From Gordonia polyisoprenivorans NBRC 16320 = JCM 10675 (GTDB lineage Bacteria > Actinomycetota > Actinomycetes > Mycobacteriales > Mycobacteriaceae): DNA of 64,000 bases. The position numbers were made by a program, and so were the translations under genes. Each line of letters opens with the position of its first letter. Position 1 is the stretch's first letter. Below are positions 762 to 16,524 of this stretch, in pieces. The stretch covers positions 1 to 64,000 of the forward strand of contig NZ_BAEI01000054.1 of assembly GCF_000241325.1 (NCBI RefSeq). Reading direction: 5' to 3'. The notes beneath the pieces were generated by a model. The model ran no database searches and was not told the origin of the DNA. It saw only the letters and a program-made list of their open reading frames with translations.

Positions 762-1645
762 CCGGGCGGTCGGACCCACCGCTGGTGACGGTCCTGATGC
801 CGGCGTACAACGCCGCCGACCACATCGAGGCGGCCGCGCGGTCGATTCTCGAGCAGGGCGTCGACGATCTGGAGCTCCTGGTGATCGACGACGGCTCCAC
901 CGACGGCGGTGCCGAGGTGCTGCACACTCTCGACGAACCGCGCATACGTGTGGTGAGACAACCGAATTCGGGACTCGTGGCCGCCTTGAACCGTGGCCTC
1001 GACGAGGCCCGCGGGAGGTATCTGGCGCGCATGGACGCCGACGACATCTCGACCCCCGGCCGGTTGCAGTCGCAACTACGGTGGTTTCACCGGCATCCCG
1101 ACGGGATCGCCTGCGGCACCGACTATGAATTGTTCGGATCGATGACCGGGCGCGTGCGGATGCCGCGTTCGGACAGGGCGTGCCGTCAGCGGCTGCTGCT
1201 GGCCGGAAGTCTGTGTGGCGCTTCGGTGATGATGCGCCGCGACGTCGTGACGGAGGCCGCGCTGCGATTCGATCCGCAGTTCGCCCACGCCGAGGATTAC
1301 GAGTTCTACGCGCGACTCTCGGCGTTCGGACGGATCGGCAACGTCGCGTCGGTGGGTTATCGGTACCGGATTCATCCGTCGCAGGTGAGCAACCGGCACA
1401 GTGCCGAGCAACGGGAGGCGCATCTGGCGATTGCGGCCGCGCATGCGAACCGCACCGGTGTGCGAGCCCTGCCGGATCACGTCGTCCGCGACCTGCTGTG
1501 GCCCGAGGAGGCGGGGGTGGTGCGTACCGCGGTGATCAGCTCGGCGGCCGCAGCGCGGGCATTCCGGCGGAAGCCGGGCGTCCAGACCGCCCGGTTCTGT
1601 TCGCGTCGCGTCATCGAGGCGACGTTGGCTGCCCGACGTCGGTGA
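752..1645 (+). CDS. Family 2 glycosyltransferase
   Basis: A 297-residue GT-A family 2 glycosyltransferase. It begins with the typical strand PPLVTVLMPAYNAADHIE, followed by LLVIDDGSTDGG (nucleotide-binding DDGS) near residue 45 and MDADD (DxD) near residue 95. The ATG at 752 was chosen because it lies directly before the conserved N-terminal strand and overlaps the upstream GT2 stop. The same frame is open far upstream, but that part is a shadow of the previous gene. It is the second gene of a plus-strand pair that converges on the flippase gene; the 3' ends overlap by 35 nt (1611-1645). It probably adds a sugar to a lipid-linked or surface glycan made by this locus. Confidence 0.88.
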   Translation: MALTGRSDPPLVTVLMPAYNAADHIEAAARSILEQGVDDLELLVIDDGSTDGGAEVLHTLDEPRIRVVRQPNSGLVAALNRGLDEARGRYLARMDADDISTPGRLQSQLRWFHRHPDGIACGTDYELFGSMTGRVRMPRSDRACRQRLLLAGSLCGASVMMRRDVVTEAALRFDPQFAHAEDYEFYARLSAFGRIGNVASVGYRYRIHPSQVSNRHSAEQREAHLAIAAAHANRTGVRALPDHVVRDLLWPEEAGVVRTAVISSAAAARAFRRKPGVQTARFCSRRVIEATLAARRR

Positions 1646-2960
1646 CACCGGCGCCCGACCCGCCGGGTCCCGCGACCGGCGGGTCGTCGGTGCATTCGGT
1701 ATGAGGCGTGTTCGCCGGCGTGTCGTGCAGCATCGCGCGCACCCCGAGGATCAGCGGTCTGGCGACCACCGCGAGGGTGATCACCACCGCGAGCAGTGAG
1801 GCGACCGCGACGCCGAGCAGCCCGAGCGGATCGAGCAGCACCCACGCACCACCGACGGTGGTGATCACCATGATCACCTGGGCGGCGACCATCAACCGCA
1901 TCCGTCGTTGGAGCTGGGCGATCAAGAAGTAGGTCACCACAACGGTTTCCACGATCGATTCGACGGCCATGACGACCATCAGCGGACCCGCCGCGTGGAA
2001 GTAGTCGCGGCCGGCGAGCAGCAGCACGACCGGGCCGCCGATCGCCAATCCGGCCGCCACGACCCCGGTGACCAGTCCGAGCATGGTGCCCAGACGTCGT
2101 AATAGTGCCGGGCGGTCGGCGTCGGGCGCGGAGGCCTCGACGATGAACGCCGAACCGATCGACGCGCGCAGCATCCCGGCCGCCGAACACATCGTCCACG
2201 CCAGATTGAAGTAGGCGTTCTGGGTGGTGTCGGTCTTGGCGACGACGACCAGCGGCAACGCCAGCGGGGTCACCGACGACACCAGCATCAGGAAGAAGAA
2301 GGCTCCCTGGAACGACAACAGTTCGCGTCCTGCCGGTAGGTCGCGACGTTGGCCGCGACGAGCGATCGCGGTGCGGCAGACACCGAACACGAAGACGGCG
2401 GTGACCACGGCCGCCAGCAACGCCCAGGAACCGGAGATGGCCAGTGCCGAGGGCACACCGGCCAGGAAGACGATGGGGACGATCTTGATCGCCGAGAGCG
2501 TGATGTTCTTGACCGCGACGGCCGGAGCGCGCCGCAGGCCGGTGAGGATGGGGTCGGTGAGCGCGTAGAGCGCGAACACGACGACCATGGCGACGAAGGC
2601 GATTCGTTCACCGGTGCTGTGCAGGATTCGGTCTCCGAGTCCGACGACGACGAATCCGGTGGCGAGGACGACGCCGGTGGCCGCGGTCAGGAGATACCCG
2701 CCGACGATGTAGCGCAGGGCGGCGCCGCCCGCCACCGGCAGGAACCGCTGGAACGCACCGCCGAGGGACAGGCAGGCCAGAGAGGACAGCACGGTCGCCG
2801 AGCTGATCACCGCCGAGGCCCGGCCGACCTCGGCGGTGGGGAAGTGGTGCTCGGCGACGATCCAGTACACCAGTCCCAGCAGCCCGGTGCCCACTGAGCT
2901 GGCCATGAGGGCAGAAGCGTTGACCGTCAACCGATCCCGGGTGGCGAGCCGGCCGATCAC
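1611..2960 (-). CDS. Wzx-like polysaccharide flippase (MOP superfamily), copy 1
   Basis: A 449-residue polytopic membrane protein with roughly twelve hydrophobic segments, of the oligosaccharide flippase/Wzx type. The N-terminal block (GLLGLVYWIVAEHHFPTAEV and FQRFLPVAG) is clearly paralogous to the second flippase at 9699-11024 (AVLGLVYWVLAGRMYPASEV and LERFLPIAG). Members move lipid-linked sugars, and sometimes other amphiphiles, across the cytoplasmic membrane. The GTG start at 2960 overlaps the upstream TGA by 4 nt, which makes it the last gene of the minus-strand operon that starts with the GriI-like aldolase at 8623. That context suggests it exports the product of this operon. The substrate is not known. 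Confidence 0.82.
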   Translation of the reverse strand: MIGRLATRDRLTVNASALMASSVGTGLLGLVYWIVAEHHFPTAEVGRASAVISSATVLSSLACLSLGGAFQRFLPVAGGAALRYIVGGYLLTAATGVVLATGFVVVGLGDRILHSTGERIAFVAMVVVFALYALTDPILTGLRRAPAVAVKNITLSAIKIVPIVFLAGVPSALAISGSWALLAAVVTAVFVFGVCRTAIARRGQRRDLPAGRELLSFQGAFFFLMLVSSVTPLALPLVVVAKTDTTQNAYFNLAWTMCSAAGMLRASIGSAFIVEASAPDADRPALLRRLGTMLGLVTGVVAAGLAIGGPVVLLLAGRDYFHAAGPLMVVMAVESIVETVVVTYFLIAQLQRRMRLMVAAQVIMVITTVGGAWVLLDPLGLLGVAVASLLAVVITLAVVARPLILGVRAMLHDTPANTPHTECTDDPPVAGPGGSGAGVTDVGQPTSPR

Positions 2961-3931
2961 GCGCGCACCCGAGTGGGCCGGTCGCTGCCTGTTGTGTCCC
3001 TGCCTGTCGTGTCCCCGTCTCTCGTGTCACCGTCGGGCAGGGGCCCGGTGCGCCACGTCCAGCCCGAGGGCACCTTGCGGGCGAACAGGGCCGGGCCGTC
3101 GAGTGCGCGTCGCAGTGCCTCGACATCGAGATCCGGTGGTGAGACGCCGTCGGGGTCGGTCCAGTCGATGTAGTGCTGCCCGTGGATCGTCACGTCGCTG
3201 TGTACGCAGTCGGACTCGGGATGCCGATAGTTGTCGTGGACACACTCGGCGTAGTTCTGCCCGATGGCCGGCGCCCGAGCCGATCCCATGAGGATCGAGT
3301 GGAACACGATCTCGTCGGGGCACGAGGCGAACCGCAGATCCCGCAACCACCCCGGGTCGTCGGCAAGGGTGCGGGCGATGATCCCGATCGCCGCGTCGGT
3401 GAGCGACCACCAGTTGGACCCGCGGTAGAGGCGCCGTTCGATCGGCGGGCGCGGAATGCGACCGGACAATCGGCGCAGGCTCGGATGGTCGGGAAAGTGA
3501 TACCGGTCGACGGTCGCGCGGTGCGGCCCGGAATCCAGTGCGCAATCGACGCGCAGGAACTCGACGTCGCCCGACCACGCGTCGATCAGCTGGGGCAGCG
3601 GCCGAAGCAGCAGATCGGTCCCCGACAACAACGAATGACGATGGTAGACACGGCCGGAGCCCGTGGAGAGGGCAAGTAGCCGCAGGCTGGCCGACACCAG
3701 GCTGATGCCACCCCAGTTCACCCGAATGCGGTCACGCTCGGCGACGAACCGCACCGGATGCACCGCCTCGGGCAGTACGGCACGTACCGCCTCGTGAAAC
3801 GGACGACTGTCGACGGCGCGATCGACGTGGGCATAGACATCGATCTGCGGATGATGTAGCGAGGCAACCAGATCGGCGAACAATGCGGGCTTGTCGTGCG
3901 CGGCGATGTACACCGCGAACCGGGGTGTCAT
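2957..3931 (-). CDS. Core-2/I-branching-type glycosyltransferase (Branch family, GT14-like)
   Basis: A 324-residue protein beginning MTPRFAVYIAAHDKPALFADLV, with the blocks VDVYAHVDR-like, NWGGISLVSASLRLL, RVYHRHSLLSGTDLLL, RGSNWWSLTD and CPDEIVFHSIL. These are the hallmarks of the Branch (core-2/I-branching beta-1,6-N-acetylglucosaminyltransferase) fold. Bacterial members usually transfer a sugar to form a branch on a glycan, and GlcNAc is likely but not certain here. The ATG at 3931 overlaps the TGA of the A-PCP-TE gene by 4 nt (ATGA), and its own stop overlaps the flippase start by 4 nt. It is therefore translationally locked between an adenylating enzyme and a flippase. That is an unusual neighbourhood and suggests the activated acid or its product is glycosylated or attached to a glycan. 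Confidence 0.82.
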   Translation of the reverse strand: MTPRFAVYIAAHDKPALFADLVASLHHPQIDVYAHVDRAVDSRPFHEAVRAVLPEAVHPVRFVAERDRIRVNWGGISLVSASLRLLALSTGSGRVYHRHSLLSGTDLLLRPLPQLIDAWSGDVEFLRVDCALDSGPHRATVDRYHFPDHPSLRRLSGRIPRPPIERRLYRGSNWWSLTDAAIGIIARTLADDPGWLRDLRFASCPDEIVFHSILMGSARAPAIGQNYAECVHDNYRHPESDCVHSDVTIHGQHYIDWTDPDGVSPPDLDVEALRRALDGPALFARKVPSGWTWRTGPLPDGDTRDGDTTGRDTTGSDRPTRVRA

Positions 3932-6477
3932 ACGTTCGCCCCGGTAAGGGCGTCGGTGACGATCTCCGCCGTCGCATCGACGTGCGGTGCGCGCAGGATC
4001 CCGTTGTGGTCGCCGCTGATGCGGTGCACGCCTTGGTGATCGGGCGCGATCACATCCCACCATTCGCCGGGATCGGGGTTGTCCTCGGCGAGAACGACGG
4101 TGACCGGGCCCGGCCAGGGGTGCAATCGATGCAGTAACGCCGAGCGTCGCCCGAGTTCGTGGAAGAGCGACCACTGGGCATCGGCCGGCCGCGGCCACCA
4201 TCCGGCGGTGAGCAATGCCACCCGGGTACGCCACAGCTCCCACGTCGAACAGTGTTCTGCAGCAGCCTGTTCGGGATCGACGACATCGGATCCGGTTGCG
4301 GTGTCGGCGGTGTCGTCGGTGGATGCGGGCAGGTGGACCGGCAGACGACGCTGCAGCGGCCCGGTGAGTACGGTGTCGAGACACACGATGTGCTCGATCA
4401 CCTCGCCGTCGTCGATGAGGATGCGCGCGACCTCCATGGCGATCACGCCACCGAGTGAGTGGCCGACGAATCGATAGGGGCCGTGGGGGCAGAACCGGCG
4501 CACGTGACCGGCGAAACGTCGGGCGGCCCGCCGGATCGTCGGATCGGGGATGCCAAGGTTCTCCAGACCATGGGCGTGGAGGCCGATGACGCGATACCCG
4601 GATAGGCGCCGCGCCAGGGGAGCGAAGGCCAGTGCCGACTCGCCGGCGCCGGCGAAGGCGAACACGATCGGGGTGTGAGCGGGGGAGCCGCCGGGATCGT
4701 TGCTTGCGGCGACATCGTCTGTTCCACGCAGATGGACCACGACGCCGTCGGCGCTCATGGGTGCGCCTGCGTCGATGCGCGCGGCGAGGTCTCGCACGGT
4801 CGGGTCGGTGATCGGTGCGGACGGGGGCAGGCTCACCCCGAAGGTTTCCTCGACGCGTCGCAGGAGGGTCACCGCGGTGAGTGAATCGCCACCGAGCGCG
4901 ACGAAGTCGTCGTCCGCCCCGATCCCGTCTGTCCCGATCCCGAGGAGGTCGGCATAGATCGGTGCCAGCAGCTTTTCGGTACCGGTGGCCGGTGGCATGT
5001 ACGCGGGGCGCCGTCGGGGTGCGGGCAGTGCGCTGCGATCGACCTTGCCGCGCTCGGTGCGGGGGAGTTCGGGCAGAAGGACGATGTGGGTGGGGACCAT
5101 CCAGGACGGCACAGCCCGGCCGATGGCGGTGCGCACCGTCGCGATCGCCGGGGCGCGGGCGGTCCGTGGCGGTGCGACGTATGCGACGAGTTCGGTGCGG
5201 CCCGCGGACTCTCGGGCGATGACCACGGCGTCGCCCACGCCGTCGGCGGCGCGGGCCGCGGCGGTCACCTCGCCGATGTCGACGCGGTAGCCGCGGATCT
5301 TCACCGTGTCGTCGCTGCGACCGAGCAGTGTGAGCCGGTCACCGACGACCCGCCCCATGTCGCCGGTGCGGTGACTGCGTACCGGCAATGCGGTGGGCAC
5401 CCCTTGGTCACCGGTGCCGTGCGTCGCGAAGTCGACGAGCTCACCGTCGCAGAGATATCCGCGTGCGAGATGGGGCGAGCGCACCTCGATCGCGCCGACC
5501 GCGCCGTCCGGGAGTGGTGTGCCGTGCTCGTCGAGCACGCGTATGTGTTTGCCCGCCGCGATGCGTCCGGCGGGCAGCGTGCCGGTCGGCAGCTCCCGGT
5601 CGGGTGTGAACGAGTTGAAGGCGAGGTTTCCGGTCTCCGACGAGCCGGACCGGTTCACGAAGGTGACCTCGGGCGTCAGTGCGCGCAGTCGGTCGACCTC
5701 GACCGCATCGAGCGCTTCACCACAGGTGGCCACCAGGTCGATGCCGCTCAATGCCTCGCCGGCGCCGGCGGTGTCGAGGACCGCCCGCAGCAACGCGGGC
5801 GACAGGTGTAGCGACTGTGGGCGGCGACCTCGAAGTTCGGCGACCAGATCCCCCACGCCGTCGATTCGCGGATCGAGTGTCCACAGCAACGCCCCGGCGA
5901 GCAGCGAGGTGACGGTGACGTCGAGCCCACCACCGAAGGTGGCTGGAAGTGCTTGTGCGACTACCGATCCCGGAACGATGCCCAGTTCGTGGGCGAGTTC
6001 GGTCGCCTGATGCAGCCACAGCTCGTCGCCCTGCCGGACGGCCTTGGGGGTGCCGGTGGAACCAGAGGTGTAGGCGAGCACCGCGCAGTCCACCCGGGGG
6101 TAACCCGGCGCGGATTCGGCTCCGGGCGCGGTGTCTGCGCCGGTCCCGGGGGCGGTGCGCCAGAGCAGTGCTCCGGTGTCGGTGAGGATGGTCGACACCC
6201 GCGACTGCGGCGAGGCTGCATCGAGGGGGATCAACGGATGCGGGGAGAAGAGCACGGCGAGCATCGGCAGGAAGGTCGCCGCCGTACCGTCGACGACGAC
6301 CGCGACCGGCCGGTCGGGATCGGTACAGACCTCGGCGAGAGTTGCCCGGAGGCGGCTCAGCTCGTCGTCGAGCTCGCGATAATCCCAGCACCGGTCGCCG
6401 ATGCGCAGCGCGGATCGGTCGGCGTGGACGGCGACGGCCGCGGCGAACCGATCGGCAAGGCGCTCAGCGTTCTTCAC
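3928..6477 (-). CDS. Stand-alone A-PCP-TE (NRPS-like) synthetase
   Basis: The protein has 849 residues in three domains. The adenylation domain (about 1-490) has A3 YTSGSTGTPKAV (136-147), A5-like SGSSETG (277-283), A7 RTGDMGR (370-376), A8 GRSDDTVKIRGYRVDIGEV (386-404) and the A10 lysine in RTERGKVDR (K478). A carrier domain follows (about 495-570) with phosphopantetheine serine S532 in ALGGDSL. The C-terminal thioesterase (about 600-849) has GHSLGG (nucleophile S674) and a late GDHNGIL histidine. No condensation domain is present. In my hand alignment the residue matching GrsA Asp235 is Gly (FGGGL), which argues against an alpha-amino-acid substrate. The GTG at 6477, overlapping the GriH-like gene by 14 nt, was chosen because adenylation-domain homology begins there. 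The neighbours suggest 3-amino-4-hydroxybenzoate as substrate (inference). Confidence 0.88.
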   Translation of the reverse strand: MKNAERLADRFAAAVAVHADRSALRIGDRCWDYRELDDELSRLRATLAEVCTDPDRPVAVVVDGTAATFLPMLAVLFSPHPLIPLDAASPQSRVSTILTDTGALLWRTAPGTGADTAPGAESAPGYPRVDCAVLAYTSGSTGTPKAVRQGDELWLHQATELAHELGIVPGSVVAQALPATFGGGLDVTVTSLLAGALLWTLDPRIDGVGDLVAELRGRRPQSLHLSPALLRAVLDTAGAGEALSGIDLVATCGEALDAVEVDRLRALTPEVTFVNRSGSSETGNLAFNSFTPDRELPTGTLPAGRIAAGKHIRVLDEHGTPLPDGAVGAIEVRSPHLARGYLCDGELVDFATHGTGDQGVPTALPVRSHRTGDMGRVVGDRLTLLGRSDDTVKIRGYRVDIGEVTAAARAADGVGDAVVIARESAGRTELVAYVAPPRTARAPAIATVRTAIGRAVPSWMVPTHIVLLPELPRTERGKVDRSALPAPRRRPAYMPPATGTEKLLAPIYADLLGIGTDGIGADDDFVALGGDSLTAVTLLRRVEETFGVSLPPSAPITDPTVRDLAARIDAGAPMSADGVVVHLRGTDDVAASNDPGGSPAHTPIVFAFAGAGESALAFAPLARRLSGYRVIGLHAHGLENLGIPDPTIRRAARRFAGHVRRFCPHGPYRFVGHSLGGVIAMEVARILIDDGEVIEHIVCLDTVLTGPLQRRLPVHLPASTDDTADTATGSDVVDPEQAAAEHCSTWELWRTRVALLTAGWWPRPADAQWSLFHELGRRSALLHRLHPWPGPVTVVLAEDNPDPGEWWDVIAPDHQGVHRISGDHNGILRAPHVDATAEIVTDALTGANV

Positions 6478-7639
6478 AGAACTCGGTGATGGGCAGCCCG
6501 ACGTGGCGCGCTTCGGTTGGGACGTAACCCAGCAGCACGTCTCCGGGGGTGAGTTCGGTGACGTTGTTGACGCTGCCGCCGGGGCCGAGCAGGCGAACAT
6601 GCCAATCGTCCTGCGCGATGACATTGATCGTCTTGCCGTCCGGACTCGTCGCAGTGATCGAGATCAGTGGGCGGCGTTCGATCTTCACCCGTCCGATCCG
6701 TACCTCGCGGGCCGAACCGTCCGAACGGACCGCGAGGATCGGCTGACCTGCGCGCAGTTCGCTGACGTAGCGGGTCCGGTTGTCGGGGGTGAGGACATAG
6801 GAGTGCACGGCACCGGCATTCCATCGGAACGGACGCGTCGGCATGTAGGGGAGTGGATGGGTCTCGCTGCAGGACAGGAACATTCCGCTCGCGAACGAAC
6901 CGATGAGGCAACCCTCGTCCAACTCGAGCAGGGAGCACGTGTCGATGCAGGCCCGTTCGCCCATACCGATGTGCTCGACGCCGGTGATCGTCAGGTGGGA
7001 CAGCTCGACCCGGTCGGCGGTCGGGGACAGGATCGTCGCGAGCGCGAGGACGTCGTCGGCGTGCCGGGGTGCGAGGAGCAGCCCGTCGGAGCCGTGTTCG
7101 AGAACGAGTTTCACGATCTCGGCGTCGGTGATGTCATTGACCACGGTCACCGTCTTGCCGCCGGAGTTCTCGGCGGCGGCGATCACGATCTCGAGTGGGA
7201 TCTTGGTGGGATCGGTGAAGGTCAGAACGGTCCACGGGGTGACGCGCACCGCGTCACACGCCTGTGCCAGGGTGGGCGCATCGGAGACGGTGATGTGCAG
7301 GCCGGTCAGGGCGTCGGTGGCGGTGGTGGGATCGACCGCGTCGGCGTCGATGAGGACGAGGTCGGCCTCCGAGGCGGATACGCCATTGGCGGCGAACAGG
7401 ATTCGACGCACGGTCGGTGGCAGATCGCTCAGCACCTGCGGGTCGTCGGCGACGATTCCGTCCAGACCCTGGTTGAGCGCGGCGGCGATGACCGCGTCGC
7501 GCACCGGTGAGTTCAGGCCCCGCACGTCGATCCACCCGAAATGCGTGGTGGCACGCGCAGCTCCGGTGGCGGCGGCGGGCACGATCTGGTCGGTGACGAT
7601 GAGCTCGCCGGTGGCGGTGGACATGTCGGTGGTGGACAC
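6464..7639 (-). CDS. 3-dehydroquinate synthase II family enzyme (GriH-like)
   Basis: A 391-residue protein of the archaeal-type 3-dehydroquinate synthase family (AroB', PF01959). It has the signature GMGERACIDTCSLLELDEG followed by GSFASGMFL and FRWNAGAVHSYVL, and an N-terminal half rich in alpha/beta segments. Bacterial members do not serve the shikimate pathway. In Streptomyces griseus, GriH converts the GriI product to 3-amino-4-hydroxybenzoate (3,4-AHBA), with ammonia release and aromatisation. A GriI homologue lies directly upstream in the same operon, so the same two-step route is likely. The GTG at 7639 is preceded by AGGAA at good spacing; an in-frame ATG at 7624 is the alternative. 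The gene runs 14 nt into the A-PCP-TE gene. Confidence 0.88.
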   Translation of the reverse strand: MSTTDMSTATGELIVTDQIVPAAATGAARATTHFGWIDVRGLNSPVRDAVIAAALNQGLDGIVADDPQVLSDLPPTVRRILFAANGVSASEADLVLIDADAVDPTTATDALTGLHITVSDAPTLAQACDAVRVTPWTVLTFTDPTKIPLEIVIAAAENSGGKTVTVVNDITDAEIVKLVLEHGSDGLLLAPRHADDVLALATILSPTADRVELSHLTITGVEHIGMGERACIDTCSLLELDEGCLIGSFASGMFLSCSETHPLPYMPTRPFRWNAGAVHSYVLTPDNRTRYVSELRAGQPILAVRSDGSAREVRIGRVKIERRPLISITATSPDGKTINVIAQDDWHVRLLGPGGSVNNVTELTPGDVLLGYVPTEARHVGLPITEFCEER

Positions 7640-7743: not shown

Positions 7744-7765
7744 ACTCGAACCCGAGCGATTCGGC

Positions 7766-8733: not shown

Positions 8734-8752
8734 TTTGGTTAGGCTAACCTTT
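8734..8752. promoter_or_regulatory. Iron box (IdeR/DmdR-type), near-consensus, with an adjacent weaker box
   Basis: TTTGGTTAGGCTAACCTTT matches 16 of 19 consensus positions with an intact GGTTAGGCTAACC palindrome. A second, weaker match (13 of 19) lies at 8757-8775. Both are 31-72 nt upstream of the plus-strand glycosyltransferase start at 8806. Together with the box at 8658 this makes a divergent control region with up to three sites, expected to switch both arms of the locus on when iron is scarce. Confidence 0.85.
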
Positions 8753-8805: not shown

Positions 8806-9702
8806 ATGCAGGACAGCGCACGACCGGAAATCATTGGGCACGGTGACATTTCGCCCATCGGGCACGGTGACGTTTCGCCCATCGGGCATGGTGACGTTTC
8901 GCCCATCTCCGACGCGGCGGGCTCTCGTCCGAGCGTCTCGGTGATCATCCCGGCGATGAACGAGGCCAAGAATTTGCCCTATGTGGCCTTCCGGATGCCC
9001 GAGGGCATCGATCAGATCGTCTTCGTCGACGGCAACTCGGCCGACGACACCGTCGCGGTGGCCCGAAAGCTGTGGCCCGAGGCCACTTTCGTGACCCAGA
9101 CCCGCTCGGGCAAGGGCAATGCACTCGCGTGCGGGATCGAGGCCTGCACAGGCGACATCATCGTGACGATCGATGCCGACGGCTCCACCGATCCGGCGGA
9201 GATCCCGCTGTTCGTGCAGGCGCTGGTCGAGGGCGCCGACCTGGCCAAGGGCAGTCGGTTCGTCGGCGCCGGCGGCAGCACCGACATCACCGCATTGCGA
9301 CGGATCGGCAACAAAGCCCTCAACACCATCGTCAACGTCTACTTCCGCACGAAGTTCACCGATCTCTGCTACGGCTACAACGCCTTCTGGGCGCGTCACG
9401 CCGAGCAGATCGAGTTGCCGCCCACCGGATATCGACGGGCGCAATGGGGGGACGGGTTCGAGATCGAGACCGTCATCAACGTTCGGTTGGCCACCGCCGG
9501 TCTGCGGATCACCGAGGTCGGCAGCTTCGAGGGGCCACGACTGCACGGGCGCAGCAACCTCAATGCCTACAGCGATGGCATGCGCGTGTTGCGCACCATC
9601 AACCAGGAGTTCAAGCACTGGCGTTCGCACCGGTCGGCGACGCGTCACGGAGTGCGCGCGGGTGCCGCGATCGAACTCGCATCCGACGAACTCGCGGGGT
9701 GA
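8806..9702 (+). CDS. Family 2 glycosyltransferase (polyprenyl-phosphate sugar transferase-like)
   Basis: A 298-residue GT2 enzyme. After an unusual N-terminal extension of about 40 residues, the GT-A core begins SVSVIIPAMNEAKNLPYV, then VFVDGNSADDT and IIVTIDADGSTDP (DxD near residue 126), and later YGYNAFWAR and GDGFEIET. This pattern is close to dolichyl/polyprenyl-phosphate mannosyl- or glucosyltransferases, so it may charge a lipid carrier. No C-terminal membrane anchor is obvious. The extension contains three tandem copies of an 8-residue unit (IGHGDISP or IGHGDVSP). It starts the plus-strand arm of the iron-box-controlled divergent region, and its stop overlaps the flippase start by 4 nt. 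Confidence 0.85.
   Translation: MQDSARPEIIGHGDISPIGHGDVSPIGHGDVSPISDAAGSRPSVSVIIPAMNEAKNLPYVAFRMPEGIDQIVFVDGNSADDTVAVARKLWPEATFVTQTRSGKGNALACGIEACTGDIIVTIDADGSTDPAEIPLFVQALVEGADLAKGSRFVGAGGSTDITALRRIGNKALNTIVNVYFRTKFTDLCYGYNAFWARHAEQIELPPTGYRRAQWGDGFEIETVINVRLATAGLRITEVGSFEGPRLHGRSNLNAYSDGMRVLRTINQEFKHWRSHRSATRHGVRAGAAIELASDELAG
8833..8904 (+). repeat. Three tandem 24-bp repeats in a coding N-terminus
   Basis: Three head-to-tail 24-bp units (8833-8856, 8857-8880, 8881-8904) differ from each other at only one to three bases. They encode IGHGDISP, IGHGDVSP and IGHGDVSP ahead of the glycosyltransferase core. The unit length keeps the frame, so copy number could vary by slippage without breaking the gene. 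The repeats begin about 58 nt downstream of the nearest iron-box match. Confidence 0.9.
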
Positions 9703-11024
9703 TCGCCGCTCGCGCCGATCTGTCCGACGGGCCTGCACCGACCGGTCAGACGATCGCGAGAAGCTCTGCGGCACTGGTGGTCTCGGGTCTGGGAACCGCG
9801 GTTCTCGGGTTGGTCTACTGGGTCCTGGCCGGGCGCATGTACCCGGCGTCGGAGGTCGGAGCCGCTGCCGCGGTGATCACCACCGCCACCATGCTCTCGG
9901 CGTTCGGCAACCTGGGAATCGGCGCTTATCTCGAACGGTTTCTCCCGATTGCCGGGGAACGCAGCCTGACACTTCCGAGCCGAGGACTGCTGATCGGAGC
10001 GAGCTGCGGCGCGCTGCTCGGCTGCGGGTTCCTGATCGTCGGCCCGACGTCGGAGATGTTCGACGGCGCCGTGCAGATGTGGATGTTCCCGATCGTGGTG
10101 GTGGTCCTGTCGTCGTTCGCGATGCTCGACCACGTGAGCATCGCGATGGGACGCGCCGACTGGTCGGCCCAGAAGAACATCGTGCACGCGGTCGCCAAAC
10201 TCGCCGCTGCGGCCGCGCTCGCACTGTCGGCCGACCGGCTCGGTCTCATCGGCAGCTGGGTGGTGACGGCGGCGATCGCGGCCGCTCTGCTGTGGTGGGT
10301 CGCTCGCCGTGAACTCCGGCTGCGTGCCGCCGATCTCGTGTCGACATCGATGGCGCTGCCCGCGTGGCGGACCCAACGCCGTTTTCTCGCAGGCAATTAC
10401 GGCGTCTATGTGGCCGGCGCGATCACGCCGCTGATCCTGCCGCCGGTGGTGATCGCGCGGGTCGGGGCCGATCAGAATGCGTACTTCTCGATCGTCTGGT
10501 CTCTGGTGAGCGCGGTGCTGGTGCTGTTGACCATGCTGCTGGGCCCGTATGTGGCGGCGATGAGTGCCGACGATGCCGCACGGCCCGCGAATTCCCCGGT
10601 GTCGCCGAATGTCCAAGTGGCCCTGCGTCGTACGCGGCAGTTCGTGGCCATTCTCGTCGGCGGGGCGATGGTGGCGGCGCTGGTCCTGATCGTGATCGGC
10701 CCGGTGTTCCTGCGGCTGGCCGGAGCGGACTACGCCGCACACGGGACCGTCCTGCTCCGGCTCGGTGCCACCGCACTGCCGCTCGCGGCGGTGGGCCTGG
10801 CGTTCGTCGGGATCTGCCGGGTGCGGTGCCGGCTCGGTCCGGCGTTGGCGGTTCAGGTGATCAGTGCCGTGACGATGCTGTCGTTGACCGCCGCGTGGAT
10901 CGGCGATCACGGGCTGATCGCCGCCGGGTGGGCGATGGTCATCGCCGAGGGTACGGCGGCCACACTGGTGGCGGTCCCACTGGCCCGTGCTCTGGGCGGG
11001 CGCGCTCAGCTCGGTCCGAGCTGA
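9699..11024 (+). CDS. Wzx-like polysaccharide flippase (MOP superfamily), copy 2
   Basis: A 441-residue polytopic membrane protein with about twelve hydrophobic stretches, paralogous to the flippase at 1611-2960. It is predicted to translocate a lipid-linked glycan or similar amphiphile across the cytoplasmic membrane. The GTG at 9699 overlaps the TGA of the upstream GT2 gene (GTGA), so the pair is a two-gene iron-regulated unit: a carrier-charging transferase and its flippase. The frame is open upstream, but that part is a shadow of the GT2 gene. The 3' end overlaps the convergent GH16 gene by 19 nt. The two flippases within 10 kb may handle different intermediates. Confidence 0.83.
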   Translation: MIAARADLSDGPAPTGQTIARSSAALVVSGLGTAVLGLVYWVLAGRMYPASEVGAAAAVITTATMLSAFGNLGIGAYLERFLPIAGERSLTLPSRGLLIGASCGALLGCGFLIVGPTSEMFDGAVQMWMFPIVVVVLSSFAMLDHVSIAMGRADWSAQKNIVHAVAKLAAAAALALSADRLGLIGSWVVTAAIAAALLWWVARRELRLRAADLVSTSMALPAWRTQRRFLAGNYGVYVAGAITPLILPPVVIARVGADQNAYFSIVWSLVSAVLVLLTMLLGPYVAAMSADDAARPANSPVSPNVQVALRRTRQFVAILVGGAMVAALVLIVIGPVFLRLAGADYAAHGTVLLRLGATALPLAAVGLAFVGICRVRCRLGPALAVQVISAVTMLSLTAAWIGDHGLIAAGWAMVIAEGTAATLVAVPLARALGGRAQLGPS

Positions 11025-11959
11025 GCGGCGCCAGGTGTCGGCGTGAGATATCCGGCACGGGTGAACGCCGCGACATCATCGATGGGCGAATACACTGCCA
11101 CCCAGTCGATCTCGACCTGACCACGCGTCGGACGTGGTTCGTCGGGTGAGCATGTCGCCGTACCCCAGTCGGCTCGACGTTCACACGCTCCGGCCTCGAC
11201 CTGCATGCCGAGCCACATCGGCACCGACGGCACCATCACCGGATCACGGACCTCCGCCCACACCCGGCCGTCGAGCAGGTACCGGATCAGCCCGGGCAGC
11301 CACTCGACGCCGACGGTGTGCCAGTCGCCGAAGTCGCCGCTCACCTCGGCGTGGGCTTTCTTGTTGTCCCCGTCCCGGTTTCGGGCGTCGACCCAGTGCA
11401 CGAACGCCGACATCTGATCGCGCCGGGAGGCGATGGATTCGGCGAAGTCGATCTCGGGCGGCCATTGTTCGTCCTTGGGCCACAACAGCATGTGATAGGA
11501 GAGATCGGCGCTGTCGGTGGCCCGCATCCGCACCTCCCACCGCCCGTAGGTCTGGGTGACCGGATAGTTGGAGACGCCACCGGTCACCCAACCCGACGTG
11601 GTCTTCTCGCCCAGGAGTCGCAGCACTCCGTCGTGCACGCGCACCATCGACGCATCCCACCGGCCGACGGGATTGCCGCCCGGCGACCCGGAATAGGTAC
11701 TCCAGCGATCGCCGAGGTCACATCGATCGAAGGTGTCGACGAACTCGCGCTTCCACAATCGTCGGTCTTGGGCGGTGGGCGTGGTGCCCGCGCCGTCGAC
11801 CCCTGAGCCGACGCAGTTGGTCGTCTGCGCGGCGTTGTGCATCGGGTCGCCCGACGCCGGTGCGCATGCGGCGACGCCGGCGATCAGCGTGGCGCCCAAC
11901 GCAATCGGCAGCAGCCGCGGGCGTTGTGATCCTGGTCGTTTCCGCCGGGGCCGTCTCAC
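11006..11959 (-). CDS. Glycoside hydrolase family 16 lipoprotein
   Basis: A 317-residue protein with an arginine-rich N-terminus, a hydrophobic segment and the lipobox-like AGVAAC, so it is likely a lipoprotein on the outer face of the membrane. The GH16 fold is supported by FDRCDLGDRWSTY, the concave-face block RWEVRMRATDSADLSYHMLLWP and the catalytic motif E-x-D-x-x-E in PPEIDFAES (E169, D171, E174). GH16 enzymes hydrolyse or transglycosylate beta-1,3/1,4-linked glucans and galactans. In a synthesis locus, such an enzyme often trims or attaches the exported polymer. The GTG at 11959 was chosen for its GTGA overlap with the 65-residue membrane protein gene. It is the last gene of the operon starting at 16435. 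Confidence 0.85.
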   Translation of the reverse strand: MRRPRRKRPGSQRPRLLPIALGATLIAGVAACAPASGDPMHNAAQTTNCVGSGVDGAGTTPTAQDRRLWKREFVDTFDRCDLGDRWSTYSGSPGGNPVGRWDASMVRVHDGVLRLLGEKTTSGWVTGGVSNYPVTQTYGRWEVRMRATDSADLSYHMLLWPKDEQWPPEIDFAESIASRRDQMSAFVHWVDARNRDGDNKKAHAEVSGDFGDWHTVGVEWLPGLIRYLLDGRVWAEVRDPVMVPSVPMWLGMQVEAGACERRADWGTATCSPDEPRPTRGQVEIDWVAVYSPIDDVAAFTRAGYLTPTPGAAQLGPS

Positions 11960-12153
11960 AGCGCCATCACCGCGAGGCGCTGCACGGTCAAGCAGGCGGC
12001 GACCACGGTGCACGCGGCCACCAGGATGGTCACCCGATGTGCCAGGCGACCACGGCCCGTCGTACCCGATGTGGGGACCTGGAATTCGCGAAGTGCCGCG
12101 CCCACCACGAGCAGCACGGCGCCGGCGACGAACGCGGCGATGGTGAGATTCAT
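11956..12153 (-). CDS. Small two-helix membrane protein
   Basis: A 65-residue protein, MNLTIAAFVAGAVLLVVGA and onward, with two hydrophobic segments (about 4-22 and 38-62) joined by a short basic loop. Both ends are fixed by 4-nt overlaps: its ATG overlaps the upstream TGA (12150-12153) and its stop overlaps the GH16 GTG. The overlaps make it very likely a real gene despite its size. No family is recognised. It might be an accessory subunit of the large membrane protein encoded just upstream. Confidence 0.7.
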   Translation of the reverse strand: MNLTIAAFVAGAVLLVVGAALREFQVPTSGTTGRGRLAHRVTILVAACTVVAACLTVQRLAVMAL

Positions 12154-14378
12154 GATGTCGGTCCGTTCTTCACGTTGCGGAGGATCTGCACGCTCGGGGT
12201 GTTGACCGTGACCCGGAAGCGTCCGGTATCGACGACCTCGTCGATCTGTTGACGTAACCACGACGGGTCCTGGCCGTACTGGAGCACGAGCATCTGGATC
12301 CCCTGGTTGGTGATGTAGACGAAGTCGGGATCGCGCTGCTCGGTGCACAATGCGATGTTGTTCAAACAGGGATAGGAGTCGATGAACGCGAACTTCGGGC
12401 CGTGTGGGTCCAGAGTGCGACGAATGCCGACCGAGTGTGGGGCGTGGCTGAAACTCATGACCAGCGAATCCGGGGGAATCGTCGCCATGAACTCGTCGGT
12501 GAGCACCACCTCATCGCGGGTGGACGCCTCGAATGCGGTGTTCAATCCGCGGTTGGTGGTTTCGAGGACACCAACGGCAAACACCGCGACGCACAACACC
12601 ATCGACGTCAGCGCGGTCAGACGTGACGATCCCGGTCGTCGGCGACGGGCCATGTCGATCCGGTGGCCGACCCAGGCCAGGGTCAGGGCGACGAACGGCG
12701 CGAGCACGGGTGAGGCGAGCAGGAAGCAGCGGATGATCATCTCACCGCCGTAACTCTGCAGTGCCACCAGCAGAAACGGTGCGGCACAGAGGAGTCCGGC
12801 GATCAGCCGCGTTCGCTTGGTCCGCCAGACGAACCAGCCGATGAGGCCGACGAGGGCGAATCCACCGGAGGCCATCATGCGCAGATACTGCATTCGGGTG
12901 TAGGTGGGATCGCCGCTGAGTCGATCACCGACGCCGGCCTCCACCGACTGGCCGACCTTGCCGACCTCCTCGACGAGGGACTGCAGGTGACCAAGCCAGA
13001 AGTCGGTGGCGCCGTAAGAGAACCACGCGGCGAAGATCAGGCCGGCCGCCAGCCATAGCGTGCGGTAGCGGGTGGTTCCGGTCGCCGCGAACGCCGCCAA
13101 CGCCACGATCGTGAGGATCGGGGTCATCTGATGGGAGACGGTGCCCGCTGCCACGATGACGACGAGGATCGCCTCGAGAGCCAGGGTGCGTCCCGCGCCG
13201 ATGCCGGGTACGCGACCCGGGGTGCGTCGAAACGCGGTGAGCACACGCTGAATTCGCCCCTGTCCCAAGTCGGGGAGCGGTGCCCGACGCAACTGCCACA
13301 GCAGGGTCGCGAGGATGGCGGTGTAACCGATCAGGGCCATGGCCTGCGGTGCGAAGTAGTCCTGCTGATACCAGTTGAAACCGTGGTAGAGCAGCACCGA
13401 CATCCACGCCAGGCGGGCGCGGCCGGTCACCGCGATCGCGATGGCGTAGACGCCGAAGGACATCACCACACCCGACACCAGTGGTGCCCACACCAGAACG
13501 CCGGTGACGTCCGGTAATCCGGCCGCGGTCTGGACGTGGGCGGCCATGCTGAAGAATCCGGCCCAGCTGAATCGGGCGTCGATCTGATCGGGGAGCGCGT
13601 GACCCTGGGCGAGGATGCTGATGAAACCGCGGTGGACGAAGGACGTCGGGATCGATGTCTCGCCGGTGGCAGCACCGACGAGCATTCCGTTGTAGACGAC
13701 GGCGAGCACCGTCGAGACCGACAGCACCAGCGGGTCGAGGCGTCGGGCGCCCAACGCGGCGACGATCACCACCGCGAGCAGCGCGAGCCCGACGAAGAAG
13801 TAGGCGTCCACACCTGCGATGACGCCGAATCGACCGACCCGCAGCACATCCAGTGACTCGGCAGACACGACGAACAGCGCCAGTGCCACCGCCAGTGCCA
13901 CGAGGCTCCGCGCCCGGCTGCGGGTCCACGTTCGACGACCGAGCCGCCAGGTTCCCGACCGGGTCGCCGCGGGCAGGGTGCGCCAGGTCCAGAGACACAC
14001 CGCGAGTGTGGCAACCATCAGAATCGCTTGCGTGCGTAGCGGACTCCACCATTCCGCGATCATCGTGGTCTGCGCCGCCAGCACGGTGACCGACAAGGAG
14101 ATCGCCGCGGCGAGAATCGCCGACAACGCGCGGCCGGGGATGCGCAGTGCGATGACCAGTGGCAGGCCGGGCAGGGTGAGGACGCCGGCGAAGACGAGTA
14201 CCGCGCGCACCCCGGCGCCGGCGACGTCGAGGTCGACCGCGGCGGCGATGTCGAGGAGGAGCAGCACCACCGCGAGGACCGCAGCCACCGACAGCGCTGC
14301 CCGCGGTGGGAAGCCGTACCCGACCGAGTGGCGATCGGTTCCGGTCCCGGCCTCGGATCGGTCTGTGGTCAGCGTCAT
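12150..14378 (-). CDS. Large polytopic membrane protein, GT-C or polymerase-like
   Basis: A 742-residue protein with a cytoplasmic N-terminus of about 25 residues, then at least twelve hydrophobic segments to about residue 600. It ends in a soluble C-terminal domain of about 130 residues (for example DEFMATIPPDSLVMSFSHAP, and two cysteines in PCLNNIALC). This layout resembles GT-C glycosyltransferases or Wzy-type polymerases, whose soluble tail faces outward, but no diagnostic motif was identified. Its start overlaps the bimodular GT2 gene by 4 nt and its stop overlaps the small membrane protein gene. As the only large integral protein of this operon besides the flippases, it is the best candidate for polymerising or transferring the exported glycan. 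Confidence 0.72.
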   Translation of the reverse strand: MTLTTDRSEAGTGTDRHSVGYGFPPRAALSVAAVLAVVLLLLDIAAAVDLDVAGAGVRAVLVFAGVLTLPGLPLVIALRIPGRALSAILAAAISLSVTVLAAQTTMIAEWWSPLRTQAILMVATLAVCLWTWRTLPAATRSGTWRLGRRTWTRSRARSLVALAVALALFVVSAESLDVLRVGRFGVIAGVDAYFFVGLALLAVVIVAALGARRLDPLVLSVSTVLAVVYNGMLVGAATGETSIPTSFVHRGFISILAQGHALPDQIDARFSWAGFFSMAAHVQTAAGLPDVTGVLVWAPLVSGVVMSFGVYAIAIAVTGRARLAWMSVLLYHGFNWYQQDYFAPQAMALIGYTAILATLLWQLRRAPLPDLGQGRIQRVLTAFRRTPGRVPGIGAGRTLALEAILVVIVAAGTVSHQMTPILTIVALAAFAATGTTRYRTLWLAAGLIFAAWFSYGATDFWLGHLQSLVEEVGKVGQSVEAGVGDRLSGDPTYTRMQYLRMMASGGFALVGLIGWFVWRTKRTRLIAGLLCAAPFLLVALQSYGGEMIIRCFLLASPVLAPFVALTLAWVGHRIDMARRRRPGSSRLTALTSMVLCVAVFAVGVLETTNRGLNTAFEASTRDEVVLTDEFMATIPPDSLVMSFSHAPHSVGIRRTLDPHGPKFAFIDSYPCLNNIALCTEQRDPDFVYITNQGIQMLVLQYGQDPSWLRQQIDEVVDTGRFRVTVNTPSVQILRNVKNGPTS

Positions 14379-16435
14379 GCGGTCGATCCCGTCGGATGTT
14401 CACCGGCGTGGCCGGTACCGGTGCCGGGCATCGCCCGGCCGCGGCAACGGCGATGGCCGCGCAAGAACAGTGCAGGTCCGGCGAAATAGCCGCGCCGTTC
14501 GAGTGTGCGCAGTTCGTCGGGCCATTGTTCCCGGGCGAACGCCGAGACATTCTCCGACCCGGGCACCAACAGCGCGCGCAGACCCGCGGGAATACGCCAG
14601 GCCAGGGCCAGACCGTGCCGGGACAACGCCAGCTTGGTCAGCGACGCCGACATCCCGGTGCCGTATCCGAAACTCTGCGTGCGCAACTCGGCCATGTTGT
14701 CGCGGTGGTAGTGCGTCACCACGGCGTCCGGGCGGTACGCGATCGCCCATCCGGAAAGGATGACCGAACGCATCAGGTCGAGGTCCTCACCGCCGCGCGA
14801 CGGGGTTCCCGTTCCGAGGCGTTCGTCGAACACCCCGGTGTGCGGCAGGATCTCGGCTGCGAGCGCCAGATTGTTCCCGCTGCCCAGCTGGCCCGCGGTG
14901 TAGGGAAAGAAGAAGTTGTGCTCGCCGGCAACGCCCGCCGCGACGTGTGTCGGATGCGGGCGCAGCGCCCACACCGTGAGGTCCTCGCCTTTGTCGAAGA
15001 CCCGGGCGTCCTCGAACATCTGCTGCAGCTCGGTGAGGGACTCCACGCCCACAACGCGGCCGGTCACGGCGCCGATGGTGCCGGTGGAATCGCGCACGAA
15101 GGTCTCCACGATCGTCGAGACCCAGTCCGGACGTGGTTGGGCGTCGTCGTCGGTGAACGCGATGATTCGTCCCGTCGCCGCGGCGATACCGGCGTTGCGG
15201 GCCGCGGAGATGCCCGGAAACGGTTCGTCGACCACCCGCAGCCGCGGATCGTCGAAGTCGTCGAGGATCTGCCGGGTCCGCCCGGACGCCGGACGGTTGT
15301 CCACGACGATGACCTCGATTGGTGAATGATTTTGGGCAAGAACGGCTCTCACCGTGTCGGTGAGGAGGTCGCGACCGATCGTCGGGATGACCACCGACAC
15401 CGTGTCGGTGCCGGTGTACGGAGCCCGCGCGGCCGTGACCGGGCCACCGCCACGCCGGGCCGTGACCGGGCCACCGCCACGCCGGGCTGACACCGTACCG
15501 GCGGCGGTCACCGCCACGCCGAGCACCATGACGAGCAACCGGGCGAGCGCCCCGAGGTCTCCGCGCAGCAGCTGGCCGAGATACCGCAGGATCCCGGTGG
15601 GAATGGTCCGCAGGACGTAGGAGGTCTCCGCGGAGAACGCATCGTTCGTGCCGGCCATCCGGCGCAGCACGGCCTTCGACCGGCCCTCGTGCAGGCAGCG
15701 TCGGAAGAAATACCGCAGTGTCGCGCGGGACTCGGTGACCGAGTGGTCGACCGCGAATCCGGCCCTCCGCACGATCCGACCGTCGGTGAACCGGCGGTGC
15801 AACTCGATGCCCATCAGCGTCTCCTCGCAACCGACCGGCAGATCTCCGACGCGCCCGAGTTCGCCGGCGAAGCCGCCGATCTCGACCAGTGCGGTACGCC
15901 GGACGGCCATCGCGGCGCCGATCGGATTGCGGATGTCGGCACCGTCGGGGGCGATACCCCGATAGTCGCAGCCGACCACCCAGCCGAACTCGTCGGGAAA
16001 CCAGCCGGGAGCGCCGATGCCCGACCAGGCGGCCTCGACGCGCCCGCCGATGGCGAGGAGCGACGGGTCGCGGAAGGCTCGACGCACATCGGCGAGCCCG
16101 CCCGGCCGCAGCACCGCGTCGTCGTCGAGGAAAACCACGAGATCTTCTGTCGCGCACCGCAGGCCGGTGTTGCGGGCACCGGACAACCCACGGGTCTGTC
16201 CGTTGGGCACGACATCGATGCGTGCCGGGCGGTCGTGGACCAGGGTTTTCACCCGGTCCCCGAGCGCGTCGTTGTGGTCGGTGACCACCACGAGACGATC
16301 GGCGGGATGCAGTTGTGCGGTGACCGCATCGATCGCGCGTGTCAGAAGCGTCATGCGGTCGTCGGTGTAGCAGCAGATGACGACGCAGATGCCGTCGTCG
16401 TGCGGATGGGGATCATGCGGATGGGGTGAGGTCAC
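14375..16435 (-). CDS. Bimodular glycosyltransferase with two family 2 domains
   Basis: A 686-residue protein with two GT2 modules in tandem. Module 1 (about 15-330) has ICVVICCYTDDRM, GLSGARNTGL and VFLDDDAV. Module 2 (about 345-640) has VSVVIPTIGRDLLTDT, GISAARNAGI and AFTDDDAQ. The linker near residue 330 carries two copies of ARRGGGPVT, and the N-terminus carries short His-Pro-Asp repeats. Bimodular GT2 enzymes often make alternating or two-step linkages. It is the first gene of the minus-strand operon ending with the GH16 gene. An iron box lies about 70 nt upstream, so iron limitation should induce it. The ATG at 16435 opens the frame immediately before the His-rich tail. Confidence 0.85.
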   Translation of the reverse strand: MTSPHPHDPHPHDDGICVVICCYTDDRMTLLTRAIDAVTAQLHPADRLVVVTDHNDALGDRVKTLVHDRPARIDVVPNGQTRGLSGARNTGLRCATEDLVVFLDDDAVLRPGGLADVRRAFRDPSLLAIGGRVEAAWSGIGAPGWFPDEFGWVVGCDYRGIAPDGADIRNPIGAAMAVRRTALVEIGGFAGELGRVGDLPVGCEETLMGIELHRRFTDGRIVRRAGFAVDHSVTESRATLRYFFRRCLHEGRSKAVLRRMAGTNDAFSAETSYVLRTIPTGILRYLGQLLRGDLGALARLLVMVLGVAVTAAGTVSARRGGGPVTARRGGGPVTAARAPYTGTDTVSVVIPTIGRDLLTDTVRAVLAQNHSPIEVIVVDNRPASGRTRQILDDFDDPRLRVVDEPFPGISAARNAGIAAATGRIIAFTDDDAQPRPDWVSTIVETFVRDSTGTIGAVTGRVVGVESLTELQQMFEDARVFDKGEDLTVWALRPHPTHVAAGVAGEHNFFFPYTAGQLGSGNNLALAAEILPHTGVFDERLGTGTPSRGGEDLDLMRSVILSGWAIAYRPDAVVTHYHRDNMAELRTQSFGYGTGMSASLTKLALSRHGLALAWRIPAGLRALLVPGSENVSAFAREQWPDELRTLERRGYFAGPALFLRGHRRCRGRAMPGTGTGHAGEHPTGSTA
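15435..15488 (-). repeat. Two tandem 27-bp repeats in the linker of the bimodular glycosyltransferase
   Basis: Two adjacent 27-bp units (15435-15461 and 15462-15488) differ only in the last base and encode ARRGGGPVT twice in the inter-domain linker. A recent in-frame duplication is the simplest explanation. It lengthens the flexible hinge without touching either catalytic domain. Confidence 0.88.
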
Positions 16436-16505
16436 CGGGTGTACTCCCTCGAATCCGGTCGGGTCGGGCTCGCGGATTCCGTGCCGCAGAGGGATTCGGT
16501 GCCGC

Positions 16506-16524
16506 TAAGGTGAGCCTAAGCTAG
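16506..16524. promoter_or_regulatory. Iron box upstream of the bimodular glycosyltransferase operon
   Basis: On the minus strand the site reads CTAGCTTAGGCTCACCTTA, matching 15 of 19 positions of the iron-box consensus. It is 71-89 nt upstream of the start at 16435. The ABC-F gene on the plus strand starts 130 nt away on the other side and has its own TAGACT -10-like element (16642-16647), so the box probably controls only the minus-strand operon. Confidence 0.75.

Follow-up and report, generated by a model that had tools for sequence, protein, structure and literature searches.

Petrobactin and the catecholate siderophores of the 2,3-dihydroxybenzoate type are built on an aryl acid with vicinal hydroxyl groups, which is made under iron control and activated by adenylation. 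An aryl unit can also arise by condensation of C3 and C4 metabolites, as is known for the enzymes GriI/GriH, and loci of the Wzx/Wzy type typically contain GT2 proteins, Polysacc_synt-like flippases, a large polytopic membrane protein and a GH16 enzyme. In this study we analysed a 64-kb stretch of DNA (hereafter the window) of Gordonia polyisoprenivorans NBRC 16320 = JCM 10675, taken from the start of a contig of 158 kb (NZ_BAEI01000054.1). One end of it carries a locus with genes for GriI- and GriH-type enzymes, a stand-alone protein with adenylation, peptidyl carrier protein and thioesterase domains (A-PCP-TE), several glycosyltransferases and two flippase-like proteins, accompanied by sites resembling DtxR/IdeR-type iron boxes. 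This system differs from the catecholate siderophores in that its aryl unit would come from C3 + C4 condensation and not from shikimate, in the amino group of this unit, and in the presence of glycan machinery instead of a peptide or polyamine scaffold. The locus shares the above-mentioned parts of Wzx/Wzy loci, but combines them with iron boxes and with operons containing A-PCP-TE and aryl-acid genes.

Among described pathways to 3-amino-4-hydroxybenzoate (3,4-AHBA), the ferroverdin/bagremycin cluster (fev/bag) of Streptomyces is similar, according to the sections of PMC6692506 and PMC9221444 used here, in its GriI/GriH-type synthesis, in the formation of an iron-binding aromatic derivative, and in the use of an adenylating enzyme, which joins the carboxylate to a hydroxyl. 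According to the same sections, ferroverdins, the nearest iron-related 3,4-AHBA products that we found, are formed under iron overload and are complexes of Fe2+ with a nitroso derivative. Unlike fev/bag, as far as these sources present it, the system considered here has iron boxes, a hydroxylase X of the 4-hydroxybenzoate 3-hydroxylase (PHBH) type, an SsuD-like monooxygenase Y, A-PCP-TE and glycan genes. In the ahbamycin cluster (ahb), ahbI/ahbH make 3,4-AHBA and the gene of an adenylating enzyme, AhbL2, overlaps ahbH, on which ground the authors assigned this enzyme to 3,4-AHBA (PMC10179220, in the part consulted); the adenylating enzymes named there are acyl-CoA ligases and not A-PCP-TE proteins. 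A word search of PMC10179220 gave no occurrence of iron, siderophore, polysaccharide or thioesterase, and the words hydroxybenzo and AHBA did not occur in surveys of Gordonia metabolism (PMC9680422) and of Rhodococcus (PMC5550956). Within the portion of open-licence PubMed Central covered by our searches, we found no paper in which 3,4-AHBA occurs together with iron control and glycan export, and none on a 3,4-AHBA pathway of iron starvation or one tied to glycan export.

Our analysis points, with a little less than even confidence, to an iron-starvation regulon organised around a 3,4-AHBA pathway, of which the window would hold the glycan half and whose aryl ligand would be attached to an exported glycan. 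An earlier note on this DNA had proposed an iron-controlled, aminophenol-bearing glycan, a reading that is partly supported by the present data. From the enzyme families, the conserved boxes and the co-occurrence of the genes, which are supported by sequence comparison, we infer the following course of events. When iron is scarce, a repressor, presumably of the DtxR/IdeR type, would leave the boxes, and GriI and GriH would build 3,4-AHBA. X would add a second ring hydroxyl adjoining the first, which would probably give the catechol 3-amino-4,5-dihydroxybenzoate, Y (an FMNH2-dependent monooxygenase) would make some further change, and the amine could be modified by an arylamine N-acetyltransferase (NAT) in some strains. 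A-PCP-TE may then activate the carboxylate for transfer to a sugar or lipid-linked sugar supplied by the GT2/GT14 enzymes, after which the flippases would export the conjugate and the GH16 enzyme and membrane protein K would trim or polymerise the glycan, so that the aryl groups could bind ferric iron outside the cell. A more specific form of this scheme, which we regard as doubtful, is surface-anchored iron capture, with a Wzx-type exported glycan decorated with 3-amino-4,5-dihydroxybenzoate derived from C3 and C4 metabolites, i.e. a polymer-bound, non-diffusible catecholate.

If the proposal is true, bacterial iron acquisition would gain a new ligand, a hydroxylated aminobenzoate of non-shikimate origin, and possibly a new carrier, an exported glycan. 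It predicts a regulon spread over several loci and connects A-PCP-TE proteins and uncharacterised envelope-glycan clusters to iron. The locus would belong with systems of iron-controlled aryl-ligand synthesis, where a chelator bound to a glycan would represent a new kind, and it looks like part of an apparently undescribed iron-starvation pathway of Gordonia and some of its relatives.

Iron boxes and partner genes at griI-griH loci

Boxes were scored as the number of matches out of 19 to TTAGGTTAGSCTAACCTAA, which we take to be the DtxR/IdeR consensus; the line of 14/19 was fixed only after the first scan. Twenty simulated 64-kb sequences (1.28 Mb) yielded seven sites at 13 and none at 14 or above, and when the 182-bp gap between griI and the glycosyltransferase gene GT2b was resampled 2000 times, at least 14 was obtained in 15 cases and 16 was never reached. 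The whole 6.28-Mb genome contains two sites with three or fewer mismatches, one of which is the box at position 8734, and none for the reversed control pattern. It also encodes proteins of the DtxR repressor family (seven matches to PF01325, six of them above the cut-off), although this profile is not specific for IdeR and was matched in 13 of 14 control genomes as well.

We compared a clade of 25 griI-griH loci from Gordonia, Rhodococcus and Mycolicibacterium, in which GriH is at least 65% identical to that of the window (the window, 16 relatives and eight further named ones), with 67 more distant griI-griH loci as controls (6 from relatives and 61 from the best 80 of 329 matches). Loci and genomes of the comparison set are designated by L- and G-numbers, respectively. 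The nearest named GriH relative among these best 80 matches comes from G. desulfuricans (83%). The stretches extended only about 10 kb from griH, and the counts were taken without correction for relatedness, with one control held twice (L048 = L160) and two others (L159/L196) sharing approx. 4 kb. Score lines for partner genes were chosen by us and are loose for K, and gene absences in L033 and L042 mean little, since these lie on short contigs.

Within 250 bp upstream of griI, a box of at least 14 was present in 20 of the 25 clade loci. In the other five (L037, L038, L046, L138 and L139) griI follows X, or GT2b and X, on the same strand, and the first gene of the row is preceded by a box scoring 15-16. 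The apparent operon is therefore headed by a box throughout the clade, as opposed to a best upstream score of 12 in the controls (griI called and scored in 65 of the 67), which bears out the iron control suggested in the earlier note, insofar as sequence can. GT2b occurs in 19 clade loci and is preceded by a box of at least 14 in 17 of them, and orthologues of the bimodular GT2 (L119-L122, L133 and L141) have boxes of 14-17 upstream. The start of the A0-A1 operon is cut off at the contig edge in our strain, but A0 orthologues carry a box 33-41 bp upstream (scores of 15 in L032, 14 in L047, 15 in L119 and 14 in L132; boxes of 13 in L034 and L045), which indicates that all four operons of the window are probably under the same control.

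The gene content of the loci is equally distinctive. An adjoining pair of a DeoC/DhnA aldolase and a DHQS-II family protein was found at every clade and every control locus. A-PCP-TE was present in 19/25 clade loci, a flippase-like protein in 19, both in 18, and both together with GT2b in 17; the counts for the remaining partners were 19 (GT2b), 17 (biGT2-like), 9 (GT14), 9 (K), 20 (X), 14 (Y) and 5 (NAT, or 7 loci under looser labels, including L215 and the contig-cut L042). Each of these genes was absent from all 67 controls. Type 1 loci (defined below) add GH16 and membrane protein K. The glycan genes and the GriI/GriH/A-PCP-TE genes, which the earlier note had allowed might never stand together in relatives, thus do so in most of the clade, and the association of griIH with glycan genes appears real. 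On these comparisons we consider predicted iron control and module membership to be well supported. Boxes without function, in an ordinary cell-wall glycan cluster whose neighbour happens to be a cryptic pathway to a 3,4-AHBA antibiotic, would be hard to reconcile with the contrast between clade and control loci, with the lack of sites scoring 14 or more in the simulated sequences, and with the boxes of 13-15 at unlinked Y genes described in the next section; such an explanation seems hardly credible.

Predicted synthesis and modification of the aryl unit

GriH of the window scored 407 bits against the BagC_FevH model (below its strict cut-off of 750) vs 241 or less against the DHQS-II equivalog models, its top score being with the general subfamily model NF002625 (473 bits). 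The scores of GriI are ambiguous (241 for BagB_FevI vs 251 for TIGR01949). A role of GriH as a plain dehydroquinate synthase for aromatic amino acids is less likely, because the protein fits BagC/FevH better than every DHQS-II equivalog model and travels with X and Y; the joint product of GriI and GriH would be 3,4-AHBA. Pfam scans of the locus genes revealed no o-aminophenol oxidase or copper chaperone (GriF/GriE, FevF/FevE), for which no dedicated search was made.

In many relatives griIH is adjoined by two genes missing from the window. X is a PF01494 protein of the 4-hydroxybenzoate 3-hydroxylase type, which passes the subfamily model NF006091 (505.7 bits, cut-off 351) and fails the equivalog TIGR02360 (450.4 bits vs a cut-off of 538.7). 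It may therefore be a relative of this hydroxylase with perhaps another substrate. Seven active-site residues of PHBH, whose numbering we presume, are invariant in 21/21 rows of X, suggesting that it should hydroxylate a 4-hydroxybenzoate beside the 4-OH. For 3,4-AHBA this points to C5 as the unoccupied ortho position, and the product would probably be 3-amino-4,5-dihydroxybenzoate, a catechol. Y is a luciferase-like FMNH2 monooxygenase, closest to SsuD.

Both genes are present in our strain on another contig (C103:29989-33100), with NAT between them and a protein designated Z alongside; the Y/NAT promoter has a box of 15. NAT is a fitting neighbour, since the arylamine N-acetyltransferase of S. 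griseus can acetylate 3,4-AHBA (PMC11213898, as stated in the part consulted). The genes surrounding X and Y on C103 (LmeA-, GlnR/MshD- and Pst-type, according to the annotation of L041) are those that surround X-griI-griH-Y in L040 and L041, the neighbours in L215 and L040 having been identified by gene order and a single tblastn label rather than by Pfam. This match suggests that griIH and X/Y became separated in the lineage of the window. The locus outlined in the earlier note (1611..16524) is thus sound in its genes and too small in its extent, as A0-A1 (3-1645) and the partner genes on the other contig also belong to it.

Exactly the same 17 of 201 genomes, namely our strain, 15 others of the genus and G105, are picked out by Y at E<=1e-100, by X at E<=1e-140 and by GriH at E<=1.2e-170. 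The lines of 1e-100 for Y and 1e-120 for X were set beforehand, and that of 1e-140 for X was placed afterwards, within the gap in the scores from 4.8e-142 to 1.1e-137. With the line at 1e-120, X marks 26/201 genomes, and GriH is found in 25/201 at E<=0.001 (17 at 1.2e-170 or better). The exact match between the distribution of X and Y and that of this GriH makes it probable that the ligand is something other than plain 3,4-AHBA, and on this point the reading of the earlier note is changed.

The set is split in six of the 17 genomes: X and Y are elsewhere in our strain, G029 and G052, and Y alone in G021, G027 and G034. G029 and G021 are one-contig genomes; the other four have the parts on different contigs. 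The displaced Y genes nevertheless have boxes (15 in our strain, G029 and G021, 14 in G052 and G027, and 13 in G034), and they provide, at the level of sequence, the strongest evidence that these enzymes would work together under iron control. X and GT2b of G048 also lie on another contig, which may reflect the assembly, as griI is at a contig edge.

Protein Z (L215:11166-12467) occurs in many such clusters, both with and without griIH, and has a conserved HGLGD-like motif (His invariant in 10/10 rows, HxxxD in 8/10, HxxxE in 2/10). None of 10 members had a Pfam match, and no significant PDB match was found (best E 0.045, to an unrelated protein). The motif would fit a condensation/PapA-type acyltransferase, but the profile comparison (hhalign) with C domains was not significant (probability 0.4%, E 0.15, vs E 0.7 and 0.45 for two unrelated alignments), and this assignment is kept as a lead only.

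A-PCP-TE and its link to the glycan genes

A-PCP-TE of the window contains the carrier motif LGGDS, the thioesterase motif GHSLGG, and A4 and A5 motifs FGGGLD and SGSSET. The place that we take to be that of Asp235, located by motif, is occupied by Gly or Ala in 22/22 rows; since six of these come from clusters without griIH, the absence of this Asp, which adenylation of alpha-amino acids would call for, tells only that the substrate is not a standard amino acid.

In a tree of 30 A-PCP-TE proteins, those linked to griIH fall in three places, and the label requires at least five changes (gains or losses). Type 1 comprises proteins of the window, G. desulfuricans, G. amarae and Rhodococcus, and type 2 those of G. 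aichiensis, Gordonia sp. OPL2 and a Mycolicibacterium group; the protein of G. sihwensis groups beside a lineage associated with nonribosomal peptide synthetases (NRPSs). Type 3 (L106-L109, from the same genus and lacking griIH) is nested within type 2, with a box of 14-15 before the flippase-A-PCP-TE genes. In G055, the griIH-X-Y genes and the A-PCP-TE-GT14-flippase genes are found on separate contigs (L039/L119), and a box of 15 is present at both.

Several observations weigh against a single system with a glycan-bound ligand. Within the fetched stretches of L040, L041, L138 and L139, griIH and X are under iron boxes and no glycan genes adjoin them, and only part of the glycan set is found beside griIH in L036 (no A-PCP-TE) and L039 (GT2b only). 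Conversely, A-PCP-TE/glycan clusters under iron boxes occur without griIH (L106-L109), and two genomes with griIH, G016 and G028, contain elsewhere a glycan cluster of the GT2b-K-Z type that has no box of 14 or more (L222, L223). The halves therefore live apart in both directions, as two possibly separable modules would. Homologues of A-PCP-TE are also encoded in NRPS clusters with iron boxes in genomes that lack griIH (G004, G039; L225, L229), so that the substrate need not be 3,4-AHBA; the protein may accept other acids in addition to it, or another acid in its place. Among the scanned genes of the locus (window 1-16.6 kb) there are none for ferric-siderophore uptake, while iron boxes and genes for ligand synthesis and activation are all present. 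As regards the boxes, X of our strain has an upstream score of only 11, a score of at least 14 was found in 20/384 upstream regions of unlabelled genes at clade-type loci (12 of these boxes being shared with a labelled gene), and, over all loci, such boxes precede 20/33 GT2b, 11/42 biGT2-like and 4/29 A-PCP-TE genes.

Many of these data would suit two independent iron-controlled modules that often share one site, with X-griI-griH-Y producing a soluble aminocatechol chelator or reductant, and A-PCP-TE of the envelope glycan using another acid. The existence of each half alone, the position of X and Y on another contig in our strain, and the nesting of griIH-less type 3 proteins among the griIH-linked type 2 all speak for this possibility. 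It is nevertheless unlikely in our judgement: in three genera the A-PCP-TE gene follows griH in the same orientation, either immediately or with Y or a flippase gene in between, the two genes overlap by 14 nt in the window (it was a similar overlap that led to the assignment of AhbL2 in PMC10179220), and the griIH-linked proteins occur in three lineages.

The locus of G. sihwensis (L035) bears on the question of whether the product is fixed to a glycan at all. Here griI, griH, X, Y and NAT lie within an iron-box cluster that also encodes a 5,840-aa NRPS, an ABC-2 exporter, a GT2, A-PCP-TE and an esterase-family protein, and no flippase over the score line was found in the stretch. Such a setting would suit an aryl siderophore that is glycosylated and diffusible, being secreted as a small glycoside or glycopeptide; the flippases would then export a lipid-linked precursor and not a surface polymer. 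As a general account we find this improbable, considering that flippase-like proteins occur in 19 of the 25 clade loci, that GH16 and membrane protein K of type 1 loci are better suited to a polymer, and that no uptake gene adjoins the window locus.

In Rhodococcus sp. RD6.2 (L131:17266-20611), genes for FTR1, a cupredoxin-imelysin (EfeO-like) protein and a DyP-peroxidase, resembling EfeUOB, adjoin flippase 1 of the cluster, and a box of at least 14 precedes FTR1. Together with the redox activity of o-aminophenols, which is general knowledge, this neighbourhood would agree with a ferric reductant, i.e. an aminophenol or aminocatechol which reduces Fe(III) outside the cell and lets iron enter as Fe(II). 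However, an Efe set was matched in this one clade locus only, within the fetched stretches, and A-PCP-TE and glycan export would be left unexplained, which makes this role highly improbable.

Two further groups of loci with A-PCP-TE were observed. NRPS clusters of Gordonia that contain A-PCP-TE and iron boxes (L220, L221, L225, L228, L229 and L126/L231) look like an undescribed family of glycosylated lipopeptides or siderophores. Pfam identified genes for GT2, an esterase and an ABC-2 exporter in L126, and for GT2 and an esterase in L221, and three NRPS genes of these clusters have 3-5 A-domain matches and encode up to 5,840 aa. In G149, which belongs to another family (L110:1970-4276 and 17227-18501), a WxL cell-wall-binding protein gene and an A-PCP-TE gene diverge from an intervening box of 15, and a WxL-interacting protein gene lies near GT2b, which has an upstream box of 17.

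Layout of the window locus and neighbouring genes

The locus consists of four apparent operons between positions 3 and 16,435: A0-A1 (+), griI-griH-APCPTE-GT14-flippase 1 (-), GT2b-flippase 2 (+) and biGT2-K-J-GH16 (-). The features are listed in Table 1.

Table 1. Genes and iron boxes at the beginning of the window
Feature	Position	Strand	Remarks
A0, GT2-type glycosyltransferase	3..761	+	5' end truncated at contig edge
A1, GT2 glycosyltransferase	752..1645	+	PF00535 111 bits
B, flippase-like membrane protein 1	1611..2960	-	PF01943 19.2 bits, below cut-off of 28.2; L034 orthologue 30.1 bits
C, Branch/GT14-type glycosyltransferase	2957..3931	-	PF02485 24.6 bits (cut-off 23.4)
D, stand-alone A-PCP-TE	3928..6477	-	AMP-binding, PP-binding and Thioesterase (Pfam); LGGDS, GHSLGG
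E, GriH-type putative 3,4-AHBA synthase, DHQS-II family	6464..7639	-	PF01959 E 9e-103; BagC_FevH model 407 bits
F, GriI-type DhnA/DeoC aldolase	7766..8623	-	Pfam DeoC-type 3.6e-42; NF005556 278 bits (cut-off 241)
DtxR/IdeR-type iron box, 15/19	8658..8676	.	precedes griI operon
DtxR/IdeR-type iron box, 16/19	8734..8752	.	precedes GT2b-flippase 2 operon
G, GT2b, polyprenyl-phosphate-sugar-synthase-like glycosyltransferase	8806..9702	+	start 8806 or 8941; NCBIfam matches under cut-offs
H, flippase-like protein 2	9699..11024	+	start 9699 or 9777; PF01943 31.2 bits (cut-off 28.2)
I, GH16 protein, probable lipoprotein	11006..11899	-	Pfam; start uncertain
J, 65-aa membrane protein	11956..12153	-	no Pfam match; found in several type 1 loci
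K, 742-aa membrane protein, candidate polymerase or GT-C	12150..14378	-	no known family
L, bimodular GT2 (biGT2)	14375..16435	-	Pfam/NCBIfam scans
DtxR/IdeR-type iron box, 15/19	16506..16524	.	precedes L-K-J-I operon

The gene list of the earlier note (GriI, GriH, A-PCP-TE, glycosyltransferases, flippase-like proteins and GH16) and the positions that it gave for the three boxes were correct. Its picture of groups knit together by 4-nt overlaps applies, with gene starts and overlaps as predicted by gene calling, to four junctions (2957-2960, 3928-3931, 12150-12153 and 14375-14378) and to a fifth (9699-9702) only if flippase 2 begins at GTG 9699. GriH and A-PCP-TE share a longer overlap (6464-6477, from the called start), and griI and griH are separated by a gap of 126 nt. 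The label of flippase used in the note holds for flippase 2 and is tentative for flippase 1, which remains under the PF01943 cut-off. This cut-off was passed by two of the seven flippase-like proteins scanned (flippase 2 and the L034 protein), and the one at L131:5436-6743 had no Pfam match. Membrane protein K matched no model of Pfam or NCBIfam, and no PDB sequence at a significant level.

Two other sites were noticed further along the window. An iron-box-like site of 14/19 (29706-29724) lies between a TetR regulator gene and a gene for a GMC-type oxidoreductase, after which come genes for TPP-enzyme and ketosynthase-III-like proteins. Finally, the region 55198-63998 contains a second, ordinary-looking catecholate siderophore cluster, which encodes a periplasmic binding protein, an SDR, an isochorismatase, an AMP ligase and an MFS exporter, with an NRPS near the window end and an iron box of 15/19 at 57673, between the isochorismatase and AMP ligase genes.

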